From Terriglobia bacterium (GTDB lineage: Bacteria > Acidobacteriota > Terriglobia > Terriglobales > Acidobacteriaceae), in NCBI GenBank assembly GCA_020073495.1, contig JAIQFD010000004.1, forward strand, positions 423,001 to 487,000: a stretch of DNA of 64,000 nucleotides. Reading direction: 5' to 3'. The notes below the pieces were generated by a model. It was not told the DNA's origin, made no database searches, and saw nothing but the letters and a program-made list of their open reading frames with translations. Position 1 is the stretch's first letter. Every line of letters begins with the position of its first letter. Of this stretch, positions 9,462 to 63,881 are shown piece after piece. The translations under genes were made by a program, and so were the position numbers.

Positions 9462-10118
9462 CTACTTCTGACTTTTTTTGGGCAGCTTCTCCCAATCCTT
9501 CAGGAAGTTCGCCAGTCCGATGTCGGTCAGGGGGTGCTTGAACATCTGGTCGAGCACCTTGGCGGGCATGGTGGCGACGTGCGCGCCGGCCAGCGCGGCG
9601 TCGATCACGTGCAGCGGATGGCGCAGCGAAGCCGCCAGCACCTGCGTCTTGTAGTCGTAGTTCTTGTAGATGGTCAGCAGTTGCCGCACCAGGTCCATAC
9701 CCACGTGGCCGATGTCATCCAGGCGCCCCAGGAAGGGGCTCACATAGGTGGCGCCCGCCTTGGCCACCAGCAAGCCCTGGTTGGCTGAGAAGCAGAGCGT
9801 CAGGTTGGTGCGGATGCCCTGCTCGGAGAGGCACTTGCACGCCTTCAGCCCCTCGCGCGTGGTGGGCAGCTTGACCACGATGTTCTTGTGCCAGGTGGCA
9901 TAGTCCTGCGCTTCCTTGCACATGGTGCCGGCATCGGTCGCGATCACCTCGGCATTCACCGGCCCGTTCACGATCTTGCAGATGTCCAGGATCTGCTCTT
10001 TGAACGGCTTGCCTTCCTTGGCCACCAGCGACGGATTGGTGGTGACGCCGTCCAGGATGCCCAGCGCGGCGGCTTCGCGGATCTCGTTCAGATTGGCGGT
10101 ATCCAAAAAGAATTTCAT
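9462..10118 (-). CDS. Transaldolase-like / fructose-6-phosphate aldolase family protein
   Basis: A 218-residue class I aldolase of the short TalC/MipB/FSA family. The Schiff-base lysine is K83 in VVKLPTT, and the family signature TTNPS is at residues 26-30. The length is the usual 215-220 residues. Such enzymes act as transaldolase in the pentose phosphate pathway or as fructose-6-phosphate aldolase, and sequence alone does not settle which. The sequence from the ATG matches the family N-terminus (MKFFLDTAN). It lies downstream of the FAH gene across an AT-rich inverted repeat. Confidence 0.9.
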
Positions 10119-10146
10119 CGTAGACCAGCCCAGTCGTCGAGGATTG

Positions 10147-10217
10147 GTGATTTGTGAATTGTAATTTGTAAAGTGGCCTAAATATCCGGAAATTACAATT
10201 TACAAATTACAAATCAC
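10147..10217. repeat. AT-rich inverted repeat between FAH and aldolase genes
   Basis: Left arm 10147-10171 and right arm about 10191-10213 are built from words such as GTGATTTGTGAATTG, AATTTGTAA and their complements around a central GGCCTAAATATCCGG. The base composition is strikingly AT-rich against GC-rich neighbours. The right arm runs into the stop codon of the FAH gene. It could act as a terminator or processing site between the two genes. Confidence 0.6.
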
Positions 10218-11008
10218 ACATCCAACTTTTCATCCACCACCGGATTTGCAAGCGACCCGATCCCTTCCACCCTGACTTCGACCGTGTCCCCGGCCTGCAA
10301 CTGTCCCACGCCGGCGGGAGTGCCGGTGGGAATAAGGTCTCCCGGGAACAGCGTCATGACCCGCGTGATGTAGCGCAGGATCTCTTCGATGGAGAAGATG
10401 AACTGTCGCGTGTTGGCGTCTTGCCGAAGCTGGTCGTTGACGCGCGTCTGCACCTGCACGCCCGCCCAGGGATCGATCTCGTCGGTGACGATGGGCCCCA
10501 CCGGGCAGAAGGTGTCGAAGCCCTTGCCGCGGGTCCACTGGGTGTCTTTCTTCTGGATGTCGCGCGCGGTGACGTCGTTGGCGCAGGTGAAGCCCCGGAT
10601 GTATGGGCGCACGTCGTCGTCGCGGCGCAGGTTGCGGCACGTCTTGCCGATCACGATGGCCAGCTCGCCCTCGTGGTCCACGCGTTGCGACATGCTGGGC
10701 CGCACGATGCGCTCTCCTGGCCCGATCACAGTTGAGGGCGGCTTCAGGAACGTGAGCAGCTCTTCCGGTACGGGATTGCCCAGCTCCTTGGCGTGCTCGC
10801 GGTAGTTGCGTCCCACACAGACGATCTTCGATGGGCGGACTGGCGGGAGAAGCCTGAGCTCCTGTAGGGATCGAGGTTCCGTGAGTGACAACGCCCAATG
10901 CTCTTCCGGAGGGCCATAGCCAAAGGGAAACACCGTCTCGTGGCCGGCCTTCGTTTCCACAAACCCGTAGTGAATGCCATTCGGTTCCAGAAATCGACAA
11001 TAGCGCAT
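10214..11008 (-). CDS. Fumarylacetoacetate hydrolase (FAH) family protein
   Basis: A 264-residue member of the FAH fold, which hydrolyses, decarboxylates or isomerises 2-keto diacids. Typical features are KIVCVGRNYREHAKE, the metal-ligand segment DHEGELAIVIGK, NDVTARDIQ, and TGTPAGVG. The N-terminal ~55 residues form the small domain common to these proteins. The substrate is unknown (acylpyruvate, oxaloacetate or 2-hydroxyhepta-dienedioate are family options). The next gene upstream on this strand is the fn3 lipoprotein, separated by a GTACT-type repeat. Confidence 0.88.
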   Translation of the reverse strand: MRYCRFLEPNGIHYGFVETKAGHETVFPFGYGPPEEHWALSLTEPRSLQELRLLPPVRPSKIVCVGRNYREHAKELGNPVPEELLTFLKPPSTVIGPGERIVRPSMSQRVDHEGELAIVIGKTCRNLRRDDDVRPYIRGFTCANDVTARDIQKKDTQWTRGKGFDTFCPVGPIVTDEIDPWAGVQVQTRVNDQLRQDANTRQFIFSIEEILRYITRVMTLFPGDLIPTGTPAGVGQLQAGDTVEVRVEGIGSLANPVVDEKLDV

Positions 11009-11033: not shown

Positions 11034-11063
11034 CTGAGTACTGGGTATTAAGTACTGGGTACT
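11034..11063. repeat. GTACT-type intergenic repeat, copy 1
   Basis: A run of degenerate ten-base words, CTGAGTACTGGGTATTAAGTACTGGGTAC in essence, ends one base before the stop codon of the fn3 lipoprotein gene. Related copies are at 14521-14550 and 61322-61394. Confidence 0.7.
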
Positions 11064-11064
11064 T

Positions 11065-12135
11065 CTATTGCGGCACGGTCTCGTGCGCCTCTTCCGACCG
11101 GCCGCTTTCGTTGCCCCGTAAGTCTACCGCTGAAACGGCGTAGTAGGAGGTGGTTCCGGCCGCGACGTCGGCATCGCGGAACGCGGGCGTCTTCACCAGT
11201 TCCGAGTTGGCTTTCCCTGGCGCTGCGCCTCCTACATGCCGATAGACGTTGTAGCCCGCCAGATCGGATTCCGTGTTCGGCGCCCACGTCAGGTCGATGA
11301 ACCGCTGTTGCTCCAGCCCGGAGAACACGGCTTGCAGGCCGGTCGGAGCGGCCGGCGGGAACGAATCGTGGACCAAAACCTTTAGTGGCGGCGAGTCGTC
11401 GCCTTCTACCTCAGCGACGACCTCGCTTCCGTGGGTCACGGTGGTCACCACCGTGAGGCGATACAGGTACGTCTTCTCCCACTCGAAGTTCCGGTCGGGC
11501 ATGGCAACCGCGGGCTGGTTGCGCAGCCTGACCTCGCCCAGGACCGCGTCCGTCTCCGTGCCCTCGAGGCGCCGGTACACGCGGAAGAAGTGGCCGAGAT
11601 CGGGGCTCTCGTGCTCGTGGAGTTGCCCCGTCCACATCAGGACAGGCCCGTCGGGGGTGACCTGTGCGCGGAAATCGGCGGGCGGCGCGAGCGTCGGTGC
11701 GACCGTGACGCGCACCTGGTTCGAGAGGCCGGCGCTGCGGCCACGGTCGTTGACGGTTTCCACGGCATACGTGGCGAAGGCGGTCGGGTTTTCTCGCTGC
11801 AGCTGCCGGGCCAGCGCATCGCTATATGCGACCTTGGCCGATACCGGCGTTTGGGAAGCTTGGAGCACGCCAATGGGCTGCGGGCACTCGTTGATGACCG
11901 GCTCGCCGACGCTGCGGCAGACCCGCGTCGGGCCAAGACGCTTGAGATTGGCCTTGTCAGTGGTCTCGCGCGGGACGGTCCAGGTCAGAGACACCTGGTC
12001 GCCCTTGCGCGCCGCCTTCAGGTCGGAGACCGGCTGGGGGAGATACAGCGAAGGCGGCATGGGCGCGCCCGGCGAGCCGCAGGACACCAACCCCAGCAGC
12101 GCCATCGCGACAAGAAGGATTTGTGCCGATCTCAT
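11065..12135 (-). CDS. Lipoprotein with fibronectin type III domains
   Basis: A 356-residue predicted outer-envelope lipoprotein. The signal peptide ends in a lipobox LVSC with C19 as the lipidated residue. At least two fibronectin type III-like modules follow: one around residues 40-150 (VSLTWTVP, YAVETVNDRG) and one around 255-350 (IDLTWAPNTESDLAGYNVYR, YYAVSAVDLRGNES). A related middle module lies between them. Such proteins bind partners or carbohydrates at the surface, but no catalytic domain is visible. The C-terminus is GRSEEAHETVPQ. The ATG at 12133-12135 gives a standard signal peptide. Confidence 0.85.
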   Translation of the reverse strand: MRSAQILLVAMALLGLVSCGSPGAPMPPSLYLPQPVSDLKAARKGDQVSLTWTVPRETTDKANLKRLGPTRVCRSVGEPVINECPQPIGVLQASQTPVSAKVAYSDALARQLQRENPTAFATYAVETVNDRGRSAGLSNQVRVTVAPTLAPPADFRAQVTPDGPVLMWTGQLHEHESPDLGHFFRVYRRLEGTETDAVLGEVRLRNQPAVAMPDRNFEWEKTYLYRLTVVTTVTHGSEVVAEVEGDDSPPLKVLVHDSFPPAAPTGLQAVFSGLEQQRFIDLTWAPNTESDLAGYNVYRHVGGAAPGKANSELVKTPAFRDADVAAGTTSYYAVSAVDLRGNESGRSEEAHETVPQ

Positions 12136-12309: not shown

Positions 12310-12903
12310 ATGAGCCGCACGCTGATGAACATCATCGGACGCTGTTCGCACGAATTTTCCTGGCCACGCCGCTGGTCCGACGGCATGTATTACCAGGTGT
12401 GCCTGCTGTGCGGCGACGAGTGGAGCTACGATTGGAAGAAGATGCGGCGGACGGAACGCATCACCGCCAGCCGCTTCGCCGAGCGCGTGATGGAGGGCAT
12501 CCGCAAAGGGCCCGCCCGGCAATCACATGCGAGCAAGAAACCCACGTGGTCGCCACGGGCCCGGCGGCTGAAGCTGGAGAACCGCGAGATGAAGTTCCGC
12601 GAGCGCGGCAGCAGCGAATGGCTCCCCGGCGAGGTCGAGAACATCAGCAACTCGGGCGTGTTCTTCCGCACCGACAACCCGGTGCGGGAGAATGCCGCCG
12701 TCGAATTGATCCTGGAAATGCCCAAGGAGATCACCGGGCAGGAGCACAGCACGGTCTTGTGTTCGTGCACCGTGGTCCGCACCGAGGCACCCGAAGAAGA
12801 AGGCAAGCCGAAGGCCTACGGAGCGGTGCTGTGGGATTATCGCTTCCTGCACGAACATCGCGACCGCAGGCACTCCGTCCTGGCCTGTGATGGCAATCAC
12901 TGA
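12310..12903 (+). CDS. PilZ-domain protein with zinc-ribbon-like N-terminus
   Basis: A 197-residue protein. The N-terminus carries C12, H14, C31 and C34 (CSHEF...CLLCGDEW), a probable metal site. The C-terminal half carries a PilZ-like core with NISNSGVFF at 111-119, corresponding to the D/NxSxxG motif of cyclic di-GMP receptors. A strict RxxxR partner motif is not obvious, so ligand binding is uncertain. A 49-residue membrane peptide gene follows 42 bases downstream on the same strand. The window also encodes a GGDEF/HD-GYP enzyme that could supply the ligand. There is a GTG-rich stretch upstream but no clear promoter. Confidence 0.8.
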   Translation: MSRTLMNIIGRCSHEFSWPRRWSDGMYYQVCLLCGDEWSYDWKKMRRTERITASRFAERVMEGIRKGPARQSHASKKPTWSPRARRLKLENREMKFRERGSSEWLPGEVENISNSGVFFRTDNPVRENAAVELILEMPKEITGQEHSTVLCSCTVVRTEAPEEEGKPKAYGAVLWDYRFLHEHRDRRHSVLACDGNH

Positions 12904-13107: not shown

Positions 13108-14514
13108 TCAGAGGATGTAGCGCGACAGGTCCTGGTCCTTCACGATGTCGGCGACCATCTTGCGCACGTAATCGCCATCCACCTTCACATCCTTCTCTTT
13201 GAGGTCCGGTGCGCCGAAGCTGATCTCGTCGAGCACCCGTTCCATGATGGTGTGCAGGCGGCGGGCGCCGATGTTCTCCGTCCCCTCGTTCACCCGGAAG
13301 GCGAAGCGCGCGATCTCTTCCAGCGCCTCGCGCGAGAACTCCAGCTTCAGCCCCTCGGTCTCGAGCAGCGCGGTGTACTGCTTGACCAGCGACGACTTGG
13401 GCTCGGTGAGGATCTTGATGAAGTCCTCGATGGTCAGCGATTGCAGCTCGACGCGGATGGGGAAGCGCCCCTGCAACTCGGGGATCAGGTCGCTGGGCTT
13501 GGAGACGTGGAACGCCCCCGCGGCGATGAACAGGATGTGATCGGTGCGCACCATGCCGTAGCGCGAGTTCACCGTGGTTCCTTCGACGATGGGCAGGATG
13601 TCGCGCTGCACCCCTTCGCGCGAGACGTCGGGCCCGTGGCCGCTCTCACGCCCGGCGATCTTGTCGATCTCGTCCAGGAAGATGATGCCGGACTGCTCCA
13701 CGCGCTCCACCGCTGTGCGCGTGACCTGGTCCATGTCGATGAGGCGGTGCTCCTCTTCCTGGATCAGGTAATCGAAGGCCTCGCTGACCTTCATCTTCCG
13801 CTTCTTGGTGCGCTGGCCGAAGATGTTGGGCAGCATGTCCTTGATGTTGACGTCCATCTCCTCCACGCCCTGGTTGGTGATGATCTCGAAGGCGGGGAAG
13901 GACTTCTCGCGGACGTCGAGCTCGACCACGCGGTCGTCGAGCTTGCCCTCGCGGAGCTGCTGGCGGAGCTTTTCGCGCGAACGCGTGTAGGACTCGCCGG
14001 TGCCGCTCTCCAGCACGAACCCGGCGCCGCCGGCATGGCTGGGGGCGGGGGCGGGCGGGGGGAGCAGCAGGTCCAGCAGGCGCTCCTCGGCGTTGAGCTC
14101 GGCTTTATCGGCGACGTCGTCGAGCTTCTCCTCGCGCACCATGTCGATGGCGATCTCCACCAGGTCGCGGATCATCGACTCCACGTCGCGGCCCACGTAG
14201 CCCACCTCGGTGAACTTGGACGCCTCGATCTTCAGGAAGGGCGAGCCGGCCAGCTTGGCCAGGCGGCGCGCGATCTCCGTCTTGCCCACACCCGTGGGGC
14301 CGATCATGATGATGTTCTTGGGCAGGATCTCTTCCGCGAGGTCCGGCGGGAGCTTCTGCCGGCGCATGCGGTTGCGCAGGGCGATGGCCACGGAGCGCTT
14401 GGCGTTCTTCTGGCCCACCACGTACTTGTCGAGCTCGGCGACGATCTCGCGCGGGGTCAGCTCGTCCAGCGAGAGGGTCTCTTCTTCAGCGGTTCCGGGT
14501 AAGTAGATGGCCAT
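13108..14514 (-). CDS. hslU: HslU, ATPase subunit of the HslUV protease
   Basis: A 468-residue AAA+ unfoldase that feeds substrates to HslV. Walker A is GPTGVGKT at residues 72-79 and Walker B is GIIFLDEID. The I-domain lies between, with a Pro/Ala-rich insertion near 150-160 ([14 protein letters not shown]). The C-terminal tail DLSRYIL, which docks on HslV, is intact. It follows hslV on the same strand but with a 133-base spacer, longer than the usual few bases, which holds two kinds of repeat. Confidence 0.97.
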
Positions 14515-14520
14515 AAGAGA

Positions 14521-14550
14521 AGTACTCAGTACTTAGTACTCGGTACTCAG
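14521..14550. repeat. GTACT-type intergenic repeat, copy 2 (hslV-hslU spacer)
   Basis: Three quasi-tandem words of the form AGTACTCAGT / ACTTAGTACT / CGGTACTCAG, self-complementary as a whole, lie just upstream of the hslU start codon. Same family as 11034-11063 and 61322-61394. Confidence 0.7.
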
Positions 14551-14625
14551 TTCACCCCGAGTAGTCCCCCACATTCATTAGACGCCCAAAAGCTCGTTTC
14601 GCTGCAGGACGTTCCGCCCTGCATC

Positions 14626-14647
14626 GCCGCCGACCGACGACTGACGA
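14626..14647. repeat. GTCGTCAG-type repeat abutting the hslV stop
   Basis: On the minus strand this reads GTCGTCAGTCGTCGGTCGG, directly after the hslV stop codon. A closely related word, GTCGTCGGTCGTCGGC, occurs inside tgt at 48181-48196. A looser version occurs at about 44300-44360. Confidence 0.5.
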
Positions 14648-15190
14648 CTAGAGTTCCTCGATCGTCACCTTGTCGTTGGTGAAGATGCAGATCTTGGCCG
14701 CGATCTTCATGGCCTCCTCGACGATCTTGCGCGCGGGAAGCTGGGTGTTTTCGAACAGGGCCCGCGCTGCGGCCAGGGCGTACGGTCCGCCGCTGCCGAT
14801 GGCCGCGATGCCATCGTCGGGCTCGATCACGTCGCCGGCGCCGGAGATGAGGAAGGTCTGCGTGCCGTCGGCGACAAGCAGCAGGGCCTCCAGGTGCCGC
14901 AGGGCCTTGTCGGTGCGCCATTCCTTGGCCAGCTCCACCGCGGCCCGGCCCAGGTTGCCGTGATACTGCTCCAGCTTGGCTTCAAAGCGCGAGAACAGGG
15001 AAAAGGCGTCGGCGGTGGAGCCGGCGAACCCCGCGAGGATCTTGTCCTCGTAGAGGCGGCGGATCTTGCGGGCGGTGTGCTTGACCACACCTTCGCCCAT
15101 GGTGACCTGTCCGTCGCCGGCCATGACAACTTTCCCGTCACGACGGACGGCCAGCACGGTCGTCGAACGCACTGGTGGTTTCTTTCTCAT
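14648..15190 (-). CDS. hslV: HslV, peptidase subunit of the HslUV protease
   Basis: A 180-residue threonine peptidase that forms double hexameric rings capped by HslU. The catalytic threonine is T10 in [10 protein letters not shown], so nine residues (MRKKPPVRS) must be removed to free it. Short propeptides of this kind are known in other HslV proteins. The conserved AGDGQVTMG and [14 protein letters not shown] segments are present. ATG at 15188-15190. Upstream lies the CBS gene, separated by a Cys-free, purine-rich repeat region. Confidence 0.96.
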
Positions 15191-60468: not shown

Positions 60469-61299
60469 TCACGGTTTGGAGTTGAGCGCGCGCAGCGGCA
60501 GTACAGCGTTCAGCGACCCCGAGCGGAAACCTTCCAGGTCGAGCGTGACGTATGTGTACCCCAGCATCTTGAAGATCCGGGTGAACGCCGCCGCCATTTC
60601 GGGCGTGAGCGCGCGCGCCATCTCCTCAGGTGCGATCTCCAGGCGCACGGTCTCCCCGTGGTGCCGCACGCGGAACTGGCGGAAACCGAGCGCGCGCAGT
60701 TCGTCCTCGCCCTGTTCCACCGTCGCCAGCACCTCGCGCGTGACCTCGCGGCCATACTCGACGCGAGACGACAGGCAGGCCGACGCCGGCTTGTCCCAGA
60801 CGCGCAGCGTGGCCTGGCGGGCCAGCTCGCGGATCTCGGCCTTGGTCAACCCGGCCTCGAGCAGCGGCGCGGCCACGCGGTGTTGCTGCGCGGCCTGCTG
60901 CCCTGGCCGGAAGTCACCCTGGTCGTCCACGTTGACGCCGTACGCGATCGTGTCGAAGCCATGCGCCTCGCGGTACCGCTCCATCACCGTAAAGAGCTCG
61001 TCCTTGCAGAAATAGCAGCGGGCAGCGTCGTTGCGCGCATATTCCTGCCGGTCCACTTCCTGGGTGCTGACGACCTCGAGGAGGATTTCGTGTTCCCCGG
61101 CGAAAGCGATGGCGTCCTGCAGGTGCGTGCGGGCCAGCGACGGAGAGTCGGCGATGATGGCGCGCATGTCCTTGCCGATCGCCTGGTGCGCCGCCCATGC
61201 CAGGAAAGCCGAATCCACGCCTCCGGAGTAAGCGACGAGCACGCGCCCAAGGGAGCGCAATCGTCGGTCCAGCAGCGCGCGTTTGTCTTCCACAGTCAT
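60469..61299 (-). CDS. larE: LarE, ATP-dependent sacrificial sulfur transferase
   Basis: A 276-residue PP-loop protein of the LarE type. It supplies sulfur from its own cysteine to build the nickel-pincer cofactor of lactate racemase. The PP-loop is SGGVDS (25-30). The sacrificial cysteine is C175 in WDKPASACLSSR, nearly the same position as C176 in the Lactobacillus enzyme. RCYFCK (C95, C98) is also present. No larA, larB or larC is in the window, so the cofactor and target enzyme are unclear. ATG at 61297-61299 fits the family start. It lies between lptD and the DsbA-like gene. Confidence 0.92.
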   Translation of the reverse strand: MTVEDKRALLDRRLRSLGRVLVAYSGGVDSAFLAWAAHQAIGKDMRAIIADSPSLARTHLQDAIAFAGEHEILLEVVSTQEVDRQEYARNDAARCYFCKDELFTVMERYREAHGFDTIAYGVNVDDQGDFRPGQQAAQQHRVAAPLLEAGLTKAEIRELARQATLRVWDKPASACLSSRVEYGREVTREVLATVEQGEDELRALGFRQFRVRHHGETVRLEIAPEEMARALTPEMAAAFTRIFKMLGYTYVTLDLEGFRSGSLNAVLPLRALNSKP

Positions 61300-61321
61300 T
61301 CGTCCGATTGTAACGAAGAAA

Positions 61322-61394
61322 TACTCGGTACTCAGTACCCGGTACTCAGAAAAACCGCAGTCGACTGAGTACTGGGTACCGAGTACTGCGTACT
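61322..61394. repeat. GTACT-type intergenic repeat, copy 3 (long hairpin)
   Basis: Left arm 61322-61349 and right arm 61365-61394 consist of words such as CGGTACTCAG, TACCCGGTACTCAG and CTGAGTACTGGG. They can pair over about 24 bases with three mismatches around a 15-base loop. The element directly abuts the lptD stop codon. It is the most complete of the three copies (see 11034 and 14521). Confidence 0.75.
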
Positions 61395-61397
61395 GAT

Positions 61398-63881
61398 TCA
61401 GAAGATTCGTTCCTGTCGTTTCAGGTTCCCGAACGTCCCCACATTCGCCAGCGTGAAGGCGAAGCGGAACTGGTTCTCGTTGCGCACCGAACCCAGCGCG
61501 AAGCGGCGATACTCCATCGAGAGCCCGCAGCAATCCCAGTTGTAGCTGGTCTGGAAGGCTGAGTACTGGAGGAAGTTGAAATTGGCGTCGAAGCCTACGT
61601 TGCCCGCCGCGCTGAAGCCCCGCTTCGACGGGTTCCCGTAGCCGGTGATGATGCGGAACTGGTTGAACTTGTCGGGCGCCGGCAGCGGCGTCGGGATGGG
61701 CGATGAAAAGATCTCGCCGGGCGCGAGCAGATAAGCGTGACTGCCGCCGAGGAAGAAGTCTCCGATACGGTAGTTCACGAACGCGGTGCTGGCGTTCACG
61801 CGCCCCAGCACGGTGTCGTAATCGAGTTCCCACTGCACGTCGGTGTTGCTGGTAGTGCGAACCCGCAGCCGCGAGACCAGCGGCGAGAAGCGCCGCGGTT
61901 CGGTGAGGAAAGCGATCCCCGTGAAGCCGGCGGTGGTGGTGAACACGTTGCGCTTCCCGTCCACCACGGCTCCGCCGAAGGTGGGGTCGAAGAAATACTT
62001 CTGCGCCACCTCCCAGGTGACGATCTCGCGCGCGCCGGTGGCGCAACCGCCCTGTGGTTCGGCCACGGTGCGGCCCTTCGCGGACCGTTCCAGGCTCGCC
62101 TGCGACGGGGTCACTGTGCGCTGCGCGGAGGCCGCCGGAGCACAATCCTCGCCCGAAACCCGCTTCGCATACAGCCGCTGCAGGATGCCGTACTCAATCT
62201 CGTTGGTGTCGCTCAGGATGTCTCGCGAGTCGAAGCGGATGATGAAGGGGAAATTATCCACTCCCGTCGTGTAGCGATAGACGATCCGGGGCTCGATGGT
62301 GTGCTTCACCTGGCGTCCCCAGACGGGCTTGTCGAAGATCCGGCCCAGAGTGGGAGGTCGCAGCTCGAACGAGGTTTCCAGCGCCCGCCGGTTGATGTCG
62401 TTCGGGATGGGCACGCCGGGCCCGCCCGGCACCGGCTGGAGCTGCTCCGAGTAATAGGTATCGCGCAATGCGATCTCCGGACGCACCGTCCAGCCGCCGA
62501 GGAACAGGGGGAGCGAAGCGCGTGGGTGGATGTCGAGCCGGCCCACGAAATCGGCGGTCACGAAGCCCGGTTCCTTGCGCGAGAGGCCTTCCGCAGCGGC
62601 GTCGAAGCCCCAGTACAGCGGCGTCGAAGAAAGCTTGCGGTCCACCGTCCCCACGTCAAACGTGGGCACGTGCAGGATGCTGACGTAGTCGCCGTTCTCG
62701 GTGCTCTGGAAGTTCTGGTAGCGCGCGGTCAGCAGGTTGAATGAGTAGCCGTTGTAGGTCTTGGAGAGGAACGCTGCCGACTTCACCTCGGAGTTCACCG
62801 TCTCGCTGAAAGTCTCGGTAAATGCCAGGCGGAAGACGAACGAGCTCAGATACTCCACCGACGCCACTCCCCGGAATCCGCCCGGGAACTGGCCCTCGGC
62901 GTTCAAGTGGACGTCCTCGCCTCCCTGGTCCTGGACGGTCACGCCGTTGAAGAAGCCGCGGTCCAGCACGCCGAAGTAATGCAGGTTCACGAACGACGTA
63001 TCGCTAGGCCGGGCGCGGAAATCGCCGCTCTGCGACCAACCCCGGCTGCTGTAGTACTCGGCGCCGATGGTGGCATCCGCGCTGCGGTTGATCGCCCAGT
63101 AGAACGAGTCGCCCAGGACCAGGCCCTTGCGCGACGAGGTGCCAAAGGTCGGGATCATGAACCCGGTCTGCCGTCCCAGCCGGTCCACCGGATGCTCGGC
63201 GAACGGAAGATACAAAATGGGCACTTTCTTCACCCGAAAATTGGCGTTGTAGAGCTTGGCCGTGCCACCCACGTCCACGATGACCTTCTCCGCGTTGAAC
63301 GTCCACTTGGGATTCGGCAGTTCGCACGAGGTCACCGATCCGTGGTGCAGGATGTAACGGTCGGGCGAAACCTTCTCCACCATCCTGCCGGTGAAGGCGA
63401 ACGGGTTCGACGAAGTCAGGGTGACGTTCTTACCGCGGAAGCGCGCCCCCGTGCTCCCCACCACGTCCCAGAACCGGCCCGTCTGCTTCCGCACGTTGTA
63501 CTCGCCGCGGCTGGCCTCGATGTGATCGTCGTGGGGGCCGCCGTCCAGCACCAGGTGTCCGGTGGCGGTCAGTTCGCCGCTTTTGGAGTCGTAGGTGATC
63601 TCGTCGGCGTGGAAGACCAGCTCGCGGAATTCGATCTCCACGTCGCCGCGCAGCTTGAAGACGTCGCCCTCTTTCTCCTGCTCTCGTGCCTTGATGGTGA
63701 CCGGCTCGCCGGGGCGATTGGAGGTGGACTCGGCCGCGGGCAGGGACTGCTGCGGCGCATCCGCCGCGTCGGGCGCGGGATTCGATGCCACCGGCGGCAA
63801 CTGGCTAGTAACTACCGGTGTCGCCAGAAGCACATGACAAAAGATAAGTGCCGTGATACTTAACCAATTGCGGGAGAACAT
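61398..63881 (-). CDS. lptD: LptD-like LPS-assembly outer-membrane protein
   Basis: An 827-residue protein that would insert lipopolysaccharide into the outer leaflet. A signal peptide (SITALIFCHVLLATPVVTS) is followed by a Pro/Ala linker. An OstA/LptA-like domain comes next (GDVEIEFRELVFHADEITYDSKSGELTATGHL), then a long beta-barrel typical of LptD. Cysteines occur near residues 187 (SCELPN), 579 and 612, and as a CC pair near 783 (NWDCCGLSMEYRR). The CC pair matches the C-terminal pair that forms disulfides in E. coli LptD. A variable loop near 575-620 (SGEDCAPAASAQRTV ... GGCATG) is long. It is first in a series with larE, a DsbA-like and a parvulin gene. Confidence 0.9.
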   Translation of the reverse strand: MFSRNWLSITALIFCHVLLATPVVTSQLPPVASNPAPDAADAPQQSLPAAESTSNRPGEPVTIKAREQEKEGDVFKLRGDVEIEFRELVFHADEITYDSKSGELTATGHLVLDGGPHDDHIEASRGEYNVRKQTGRFWDVVGSTGARFRGKNVTLTSSNPFAFTGRMVEKVSPDRYILHHGSVTSCELPNPKWTFNAEKVIVDVGGTAKLYNANFRVKKVPILYLPFAEHPVDRLGRQTGFMIPTFGTSSRKGLVLGDSFYWAINRSADATIGAEYYSSRGWSQSGDFRARPSDTSFVNLHYFGVLDRGFFNGVTVQDQGGEDVHLNAEGQFPGGFRGVASVEYLSSFVFRLAFTETFSETVNSEVKSAAFLSKTYNGYSFNLLTARYQNFQSTENGDYVSILHVPTFDVGTVDRKLSSTPLYWGFDAAAEGLSRKEPGFVTADFVGRLDIHPRASLPLFLGGWTVRPEIALRDTYYSEQLQPVPGGPGVPIPNDINRRALETSFELRPPTLGRIFDKPVWGRQVKHTIEPRIVYRYTTGVDNFPFIIRFDSRDILSDTNEIEYGILQRLYAKRVSGEDCAPAASAQRTVTPSQASLERSAKGRTVAEPQGGCATGAREIVTWEVAQKYFFDPTFGGAVVDGKRNVFTTTAGFTGIAFLTEPRRFSPLVSRLRVRTTSNTDVQWELDYDTVLGRVNASTAFVNYRIGDFFLGGSHAYLLAPGEIFSSPIPTPLPAPDKFNQFRIITGYGNPSKRGFSAAGNVGFDANFNFLQYSAFQTSYNWDCCGLSMEYRRFALGSVRNENQFRFAFTLANVGTFGNLKRQERIF

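Follow-up and report, generated by a model that had tools for sequence, protein, structure and literature searches.

We lean toward reading the three self-complementary intergenic sites described here as copies of a dispersed extragenic element of ~31 bp, itself one family within a larger class of roughly four-heptad intergenic arrays, the unit sequence differing from family to family and species to species. These arrays have a recurrent size and internal order, are dispersed, polar with respect to neighboring ORFs and found singly or in convergent pairs, are nearly excluded from genes, and turn over; in no more than a handful of gaps does a relative have, in the corresponding place, an array or pair built on a different unit. 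The window, by which we mean the whole 64-kb stretch analyzed, is part of contig 4 of a 3.70-Mb genome in eight contigs (G000).

Heptad arrays in the window and across the genome

An earlier note on this DNA had reported three sites assembled from shared ten-base words, and on re-reading the sequence the sites prove to be real: GTACTCAG occurs nine times in the window as against 0.68 expected and at most three in each of 100 shuffles, with six of the nine copies lying in the three sites. The three sites do have sequence in common, as the note held, but the ten-base words are themselves pieces of AGTACYC-type heptads that repeat in a register of seven bases. The placing between minus-strand genes, at a stop or start codon, is borne out as well, all ORFs adjoining sites 1–3 being on the minus strand (Table 1). 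The window also holds arrays that the note had not described, namely a GATTTGT/AATTTGT pair and an AGTCGTC array. Gene calls were made with a codon-usage script, whose stops are more reliable than its uncertain starts, and the HslU-like and HslV-like designations are our reading of Pfam domains and gene order. No Rfam family matched the window at gathering score.

Table 1. Heptad arrays of the window and the ORFs that flank them (strand of an array is its outward strand)
Feature	Coordinates	Strand	Position or assignment
ORF	9462-10118		transaldolase-type (Pfam)
GATTTGT/AATTTGT array, left arm of convergent pair	10142-10171	+	gap between ORFs 9462-10118 and 10214-11008
GATTTGT/AATTTGT array, right arm of convergent pair	10193-10222	-	overlaps stop codon of ORF 10214-11008
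ORF	10214-11008		FAA hydrolase (Pfam)
Site 1, AGTACT-type array, ~four heptads, one degenerate	11034-11064	-	begins at stop codon of ORF 11065-12135
ORF	11065-12135	-	no Pfam match
ORF	13108-14514	-	AAA_2/HslU-like (Pfam)
Site 2, four AGTACT-type heptads plus AG	14521-14550	+	7 bases from start codon (14514) of HslU-like ORF 13108-14514
AGTCGTC array	14627-14649	-	outward from stop codon of HslV-like ORF 14648-15190; shares gap with site 2
ORF	14648-15190		proteasome-type/HslV-like (Pfam)
ORF	60469-61299	-	marginal PP-loop/NAD-synthase-type matches (Pfam)
Site 3, left arm, four AGTACT-type heptads	61321-61349	+	outward, 22 bases from start codon of ORF 60469-61299
Site 3, spacer (loop) between arms	61350-61363	.	
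Site 3, right arm, four AGTACT-type heptads	61364-61396	-	outward from stop codon of LptD-like ORF 61398-63881
ORF	61398-63881	-	LptD (Pfam)

Site 3, for which a hairpin of about 24 pairs had been proposed, is computed to form 26 pairs as RNA of the plus strand (-41.2 kcal/mol, z -7.2). The convergent GATTTGT/AATTTGT pair at 10142-10222 also folds (z -4.4), and folding at sites 1 and 2 is weak (z -2.2 and -1.5, respectively).

The genome-wide family that the note suspected does exist. GTACTCAGTACTC has 82 matches in the genome as against none for the reversed control, and a four-heptad GTAC pattern allowing up to two mismatches finds 115 places as against none for its control, overlapping matches in long arrays included. 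Together, shuffles and pattern controls rule out chance or base composition as the source of the heptad arrays. A survey of repeat periods covered the window and 55 spaced stretches of 20 kb each (1,164 kb of G000 in all) and returned 80 intergenic and 6 coding arrays of period 7, along with 56 intergenic and 6 coding arrays of its multiple, period 14. Periods 5, 8, 10, 11, 13, and 16 gave zero to five intergenic arrays each, and the arrays of periods 6, 12, and 15 were mostly coding. Period 9, with 23 intergenic and 35 coding arrays, has the most intergenic arrays among the non-heptad periods.

In the first 864 kb of this sample, 50 period-7 arrays were found as against 1 in shuffled sequence. 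Of 80 arrays counted in 864 kb, 140 kb of which is intergenic, 75 lie between genes; the threshold misses weak arrays, such that neither site 1 nor site 3's left arm figures in this count or in the unit families drawn from it. The period-7 units of the genome are AGTACTC, AATTTGT/GATTTGT, TAGTAGC, TTAGCGA, and AGCCGTC, plus singletons, with unit families accounting for 36, 19, 8, and 5 of the 75 arrays and the largest cluster mixing several units. None of the main units (AGTACTC, AATTTGT, TAGTAGC, TTAGCGA) contains a run of three G. A few arrays are both long and almost perfect. One 20-kb stretch (L033, G000:C4:200001-220000) holds ten period-7 arrays, among them the longest AGTACT arrays of the sample, at 49 and 85 bases.

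Unit number, polarity and convergent pairs

The number of units per array is far from evenly distributed. Intergenic runs of AGTACT-type heptads number 99, 11, 8, 38, 3, 1, and 1 for one to seven units, with one further run of 12 units, as compared with 138 runs of one unit and 3 of two units for a control word; four-unit runs thus make up 38 of the 62 AGTACT runs having at least two units. Within the four-unit arrays of the G000 sample, exactly one heptad begins with GG in 28 of 35, and it is unit 3 in 20 of these, unit 4 in 7, and unit 2 in 1; in the remaining seven it is absent (four arrays) or present several times (three). The congener G001 has the GG heptad at unit 3 in six arrays and at unit 4 in one, with 6 of 13 arrays left out, and the relatives G002, G029, and G030 together have one each at units 2, 3, and 4, with no preferred place. 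On the outward strand the consensus reads AGTACTC-AGTACTC-GGTACTC-AGTACTC-AG(T), often with AAGA before it (45–62% per base in G000, 69% in G001) and an A-rich stretch or A-run after it. The four-unit size, the preferred place of the GG heptad, and the recurring flanks are the marks of a dispersed module of ~31 bp.

Growth by duplication of short units, along with recombination of words into new orders, had been put forward in the earlier note. Neither holds as the main process, given the peak at four units and the GG heptad at unit 3 in 20 of 28 arrays, though each has a minority part: heptad variants do differ in order between G000 and G001 at conserved sites, and the arrays of 7 and 12 units in G000, together with a 176-base array in G001, indicate that local expansion does occur. 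The latter (L186, 19203-19378), with GTACTTG and GTACTGA heptads arranged in blocks, is an example of true expansion.

The position of arrays relative to gene ends, which the note had proposed to tabulate, is polar. Array orientation for these tests was set from the sequence alone. In the G000 sample, the 5' end is the one nearer the ORF end in 33 of 40 intergenic AGTACT arrays (p 4e-5), and the array ends that come within 10 bases of an ORF end are five-prime in 21 cases and three-prime in 2. The G001 arrays, from stretches chosen for AGTACT hits, lean the same way (15 vs 6, p 0.08), and polarity is unsupported in G002, G029, and G030 taken together (5 vs 4). For arrays of all unit families the corresponding figure is 53 of 68, which overstates polarity because each family's orientation was picked by majority.

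An independent test of polarity comes from public loci, at least 118 stretches matched by three AGTNNTC heptads regardless of genes. Eighty locus titles were seen among the matches listed, from Cyanobacteria, Bacteroidetes, Acidobacteria, Planctomycetes, Chloroflexi, and others. Setting aside 28 of the 137 arrays, 5 because they fell within called genes and 23 for want of a neighboring gene in the stretch, left 109 usable ones; among these listed matches the 5' end was nearer in 82 arrays and the 3' end in 27, two long arrays being counted twice; with the two duplicates removed, polarity was outward in 81 of 107. Within 10 bases of an ORF end, again among the matches listed (n = 109), 56 five-prime ends compare with 14 three-prime ends, divided as 33 vs 13 at stops and 23 vs 1 at starts. 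With a single array taken from each locus, the listed matches give 70 of 92 (p 5e-7), with median distances of 9 and 110 bases. By group, the 5' and 3' counts among the matches listed are 25 and 5 for Cyanobacteria, 7 and 3 for Bacteroidetes, 8 and 2 for Acidobacteria, 7 and 3 for Planctomycetes, 5 and 3 for Chloroflexi, 2 and 2 for other titled loci, and 27 and 8 where titles were not seen, of which only Cyanobacteria and the pooled set are strong by themselves.

Inverted partners lie predominantly on the 3' side of an array: 7 in G000, 9 in G001, and 29 among the public matches listed (39, 20, and 127 arrays examined, respectively), as against 0, 0, and 5 on the 5' side. This asymmetry implies that a hairpin such as that of site 3 is two outward modules standing face to face. 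For arrays of any unit in G000, an inverted partner (score of at least 9, within 90 bases) was found for 21 of 75, as compared with 9 of 225 when flanks of other loci were substituted. Gene arrangement around the arrays is near background, with 31, 18, 17, and 9 arrays in the four arrangements as compared with 194, 156, 110, and 81 gaps of at least 30 bases, and on this ground terminators or promoters are not favored. By eye, certain arrays are flanked by a stop codon on one side and a GC-rich hairpin on the other. All-frame stop codons were also considered as a function, by reading the units, and dropped.

Orthologous gaps in relatives

Of 61 genomes, 6 contain GTACTCAGTACTCAG, counting that of the window itself. 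Small samples of 17 other relatives gave intergenic period-7 arrays in 5 of them, 13 in total, as compared with zero to four at any one of the other periods between 5 and 13; the same small samples yielded no intergenic period-7 array in the remaining 12. Between G000 and its congener, 76 orthologous gaps divide into 8 with arrays in both, 6 in G001 only (among them the gap of site 1, so scored though G000 has an array there), 3 in G000 only, and 59 in neither. Against four other genera, 23 orthologous gaps of at least 30 bases, among which the window's own make up most of the informative ones, have arrays in both genomes in 3 cases, in G000 only in 7, in the relative only in 1, and in neither in 12.

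In all three gaps where G000 and another genus both have arrays, the units differ. In the HslV-HslU gap, G000 carries AGTACTC and AGTCGTC, G002 an AGTTCCG-type unit, and G029 a paired unit of AGGTCTC type; in the LptD gap, G000 has AGTACTC and G004 a paired GCACTCA type. With looser flank matching, the site 1 gap has GACTCCT in G001 and GGAAAGT in G004. Relatives can thus fill matching gaps with other seven-base units, and the layout seems weightier than the letters, though the exchange of units rests on few orthologous gaps, picked since the window has arrays there, and some such gaps are array-free. Under the same looser matching, the 10119-10213 gap has no array in G002 or G030, and in G004 (L173) it holds a convergent pair of TGATTCAT type with period 8, which implies that the layout is not tied strictly to period 7. 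The G002 gap that matches window positions 61300-61397 (L172) holds a long hairpin of CCACGAAGG-type repeats with a period of ~9–10, rather than heptads.

In each of the five genomes examined, whose sequences here are unlike, the LptD/PP-loop-type gap folds more strongly than shuffled sequence (z -6.0 in G000, -6.0 in G001, -5.6 in G004, -7.7 in G002, and -3.5 in G029). The HslV-HslU gap does not do so in G000 (z -0.1) or G002 (z -0.5) and does in G029 (z -7.3). The length of this latter gap (window 14515-14647) is 133 bases in G000, 55 in G002, 45 in G004, 114 in G029, where it forms a strong hairpin, and 417 in G001. Elsewhere in G000 (L208, ~12340-12830, G000:C6), a block of ~486 bases comprising an array, a small ORF, and a convergent array is absent from the orthologous G001 gap. 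The small ORF presumably encodes a protein of the 23S-intervening-sequence (S23) type, which it resembles.

Origin of the arrays and known heptad repeats

If the sites are copies of a dispersed module, that module would spread by being copied as one unit and would survive only outside coding sequence, its polarity would be fixed when it is inserted or synthesized, and two outward modules facing each other would give rise to the hairpin of a pair. Its behavior would be that of a selfish or near-neutral repeat. Since gene arrangement is near background and the folds of sites 1 and 2 are weak, nothing calls for a transcript-level role, though the LptD gap could still accommodate one. Against this reading, a vacant site bearing a clean target duplication was not demonstrated, and no copying enzyme turned up.

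Growth in place by seven-base polymerase slippage, with selection purging the arrays from genes, would make these ordinary microsatellites; the short-unit duplication of the earlier note falls under this view. Such slippage accounts for period 7 as the outstanding non-triplet period, for the few long and nearly perfect arrays, and for heptad variants whose order differs between G000 and G001. Yet we consider it unlikely, since unit number peaks at four where slippage would give a steady fall, the GG heptad holds a preferred place, a few unit families (36, 19, 8, and 5 of 75 arrays) cover most loci, and neither outward polarity nor convergent partners are predicted. More doubtful still, in our view, is a functional signal, be it a transcript terminator or stabilizer, a translational regulator, or sites for a heptad-binding protein. 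Arrays do stand at ORF ends, pairs form strong hairpins, the LptD/PP-loop-type slot folds in five genomes despite unlike sequences (z -3.5 to -7.7), and the available portion of MacGregor (2015, PMC4679880) suggests a regulator for TAACTGA repeats; against this, gene arrangement is unbiased, sites 1 and 2 fold weakly, presence varies within the genus (both 8, G001 only 6, G000 only 3, of 76 gaps), and units can substitute for one another at the handful of sites compared.

Short dispersed extragenic repeats, single or in inverted pairs, are also what the consulted portions of the literature describe for REP/REPIN systems with their RAYTs (PMC3733652, PMC6006769). Mobilization of the heptad modules by the genome's own RAYT (Y1) transposase would suit dispersed extragenic units of ~31 bp, single or inverted, in a genome with eight Y1_Tnp matches. 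We nonetheless find it very unlikely: no heptad array lies within 500 bases of any of the eight Y1 domains, some of which have other palindromes alongside, and the consensus of the 35 four-unit arrays and their flanks lacks at either end the GTAG or CGTC tag described for REPs (PMC3733652, in the part available). The modules differ from REP/REPIN, as so described, in their heptad-periodic arms, the missing tag tetramer, and the lack of a RAYT-like gene alongside, and to that extent the earlier note's phrase, unlike a simple REP, is upheld. Repeated GC-rich palindromes do accompany RAYT-like genes (L194, 2362-2381 and 3147-3166; L029, 18085-18267), and these are probably the true REPs of the genome.

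The nearest precedent in the openly licensed literature is a pair of 2015 papers. The portions consulted of Rehm et al. (2015, PMC4692102) describe G-rich heptads, GGGAATC in Xanthomonas and GGGGA(C/T)T in Anabaena/Nostoc, mostly in four units, intergenic, on the outward strand at both ORF ends and in convergent pairs; quadruplexes are proposed for these repeats, which form them in vitro, and those portions report no role found. The period-7 excess, intergenic bias, four-unit size, outward polarity, and convergent pairs are all shared with the repeats so described. The difference is that each genome there has one G-rich unit, whereas G000 has several non-G-rich units, with other units in relatives' orthologous gaps. 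A G-quadruplex origin, for all that the anatomy matches (PMC4692102, same portions), is hardly credible here, since the main units of G000 lack G-tracts; with the anatomy kept in their absence, quadruplexes cannot be the general cause.

MacGregor (2015, PMC4679880), in the portion available, describes TAACTGA direct repeats, and intergenic heptads near ORFs in unrelated phyla; the BOGUAY genome has one favored unit, mostly upstream of starts, and similar heptamers are rare there. Those repeats share with ours the intergenic heptads near ORFs and differ in having one favored unit rather than several. Read on its outward strand, TAACTGA becomes TCAGTTA, which would be of AGTNNTC type. Mrazek (2007), as cited in the parts seen of both papers, described heptanucleotide long simple sequence repeats with an intergenic period-7 excess, which G000 shares; these were defined as slippage products, in a definition that, as cited, does not include four-unit size, polarity, or pairing. 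The 2007 explanation, a polymerase-footprint idea cited in both papers, is relayed by MacGregor in the same portion as a seven-base polymerase contact that favors slippage (PMC4679880).

Our search of the openly licensed literature turned up nothing nearer than these two papers, and none that treats polarity independent of the unit or the replacement of units in orthologous gaps. The cyanobacterial STRR heptamers are dispersed heptamer arrays, and by that description resemble those of G000. The anatomy was already known for G-rich heptads. The present data separate the architecture from the sequence of the unit, in that units unable to form quadruplexes show the same size, position, polarity, and pairing, and unlike units can occupy orthologous gaps, which points to a common, unit-independent cause. 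Why bacterial intergenic DNA favors seven-base repeats is the question that both 2015 papers, in the parts available, leave standing. Four units, outward polarity, and unit replacement are predictions that can be checked in any genome.

Tentatively, the heptad arrays of many phyla might even form one ORF-boundary class, produced by a strand-polar process that measures out length (seven bases, some four times over) and is blind to unit sequence, such as an unrecognized mobile system or the templated synthesis of 3' ends at breaks lying outside genes; we regard this as a possibility well short of likely. Were it true, unlike units would be interchangeable and would replace one another in the same gaps, and the quadruplex and regulator accounts of single units would become special cases.
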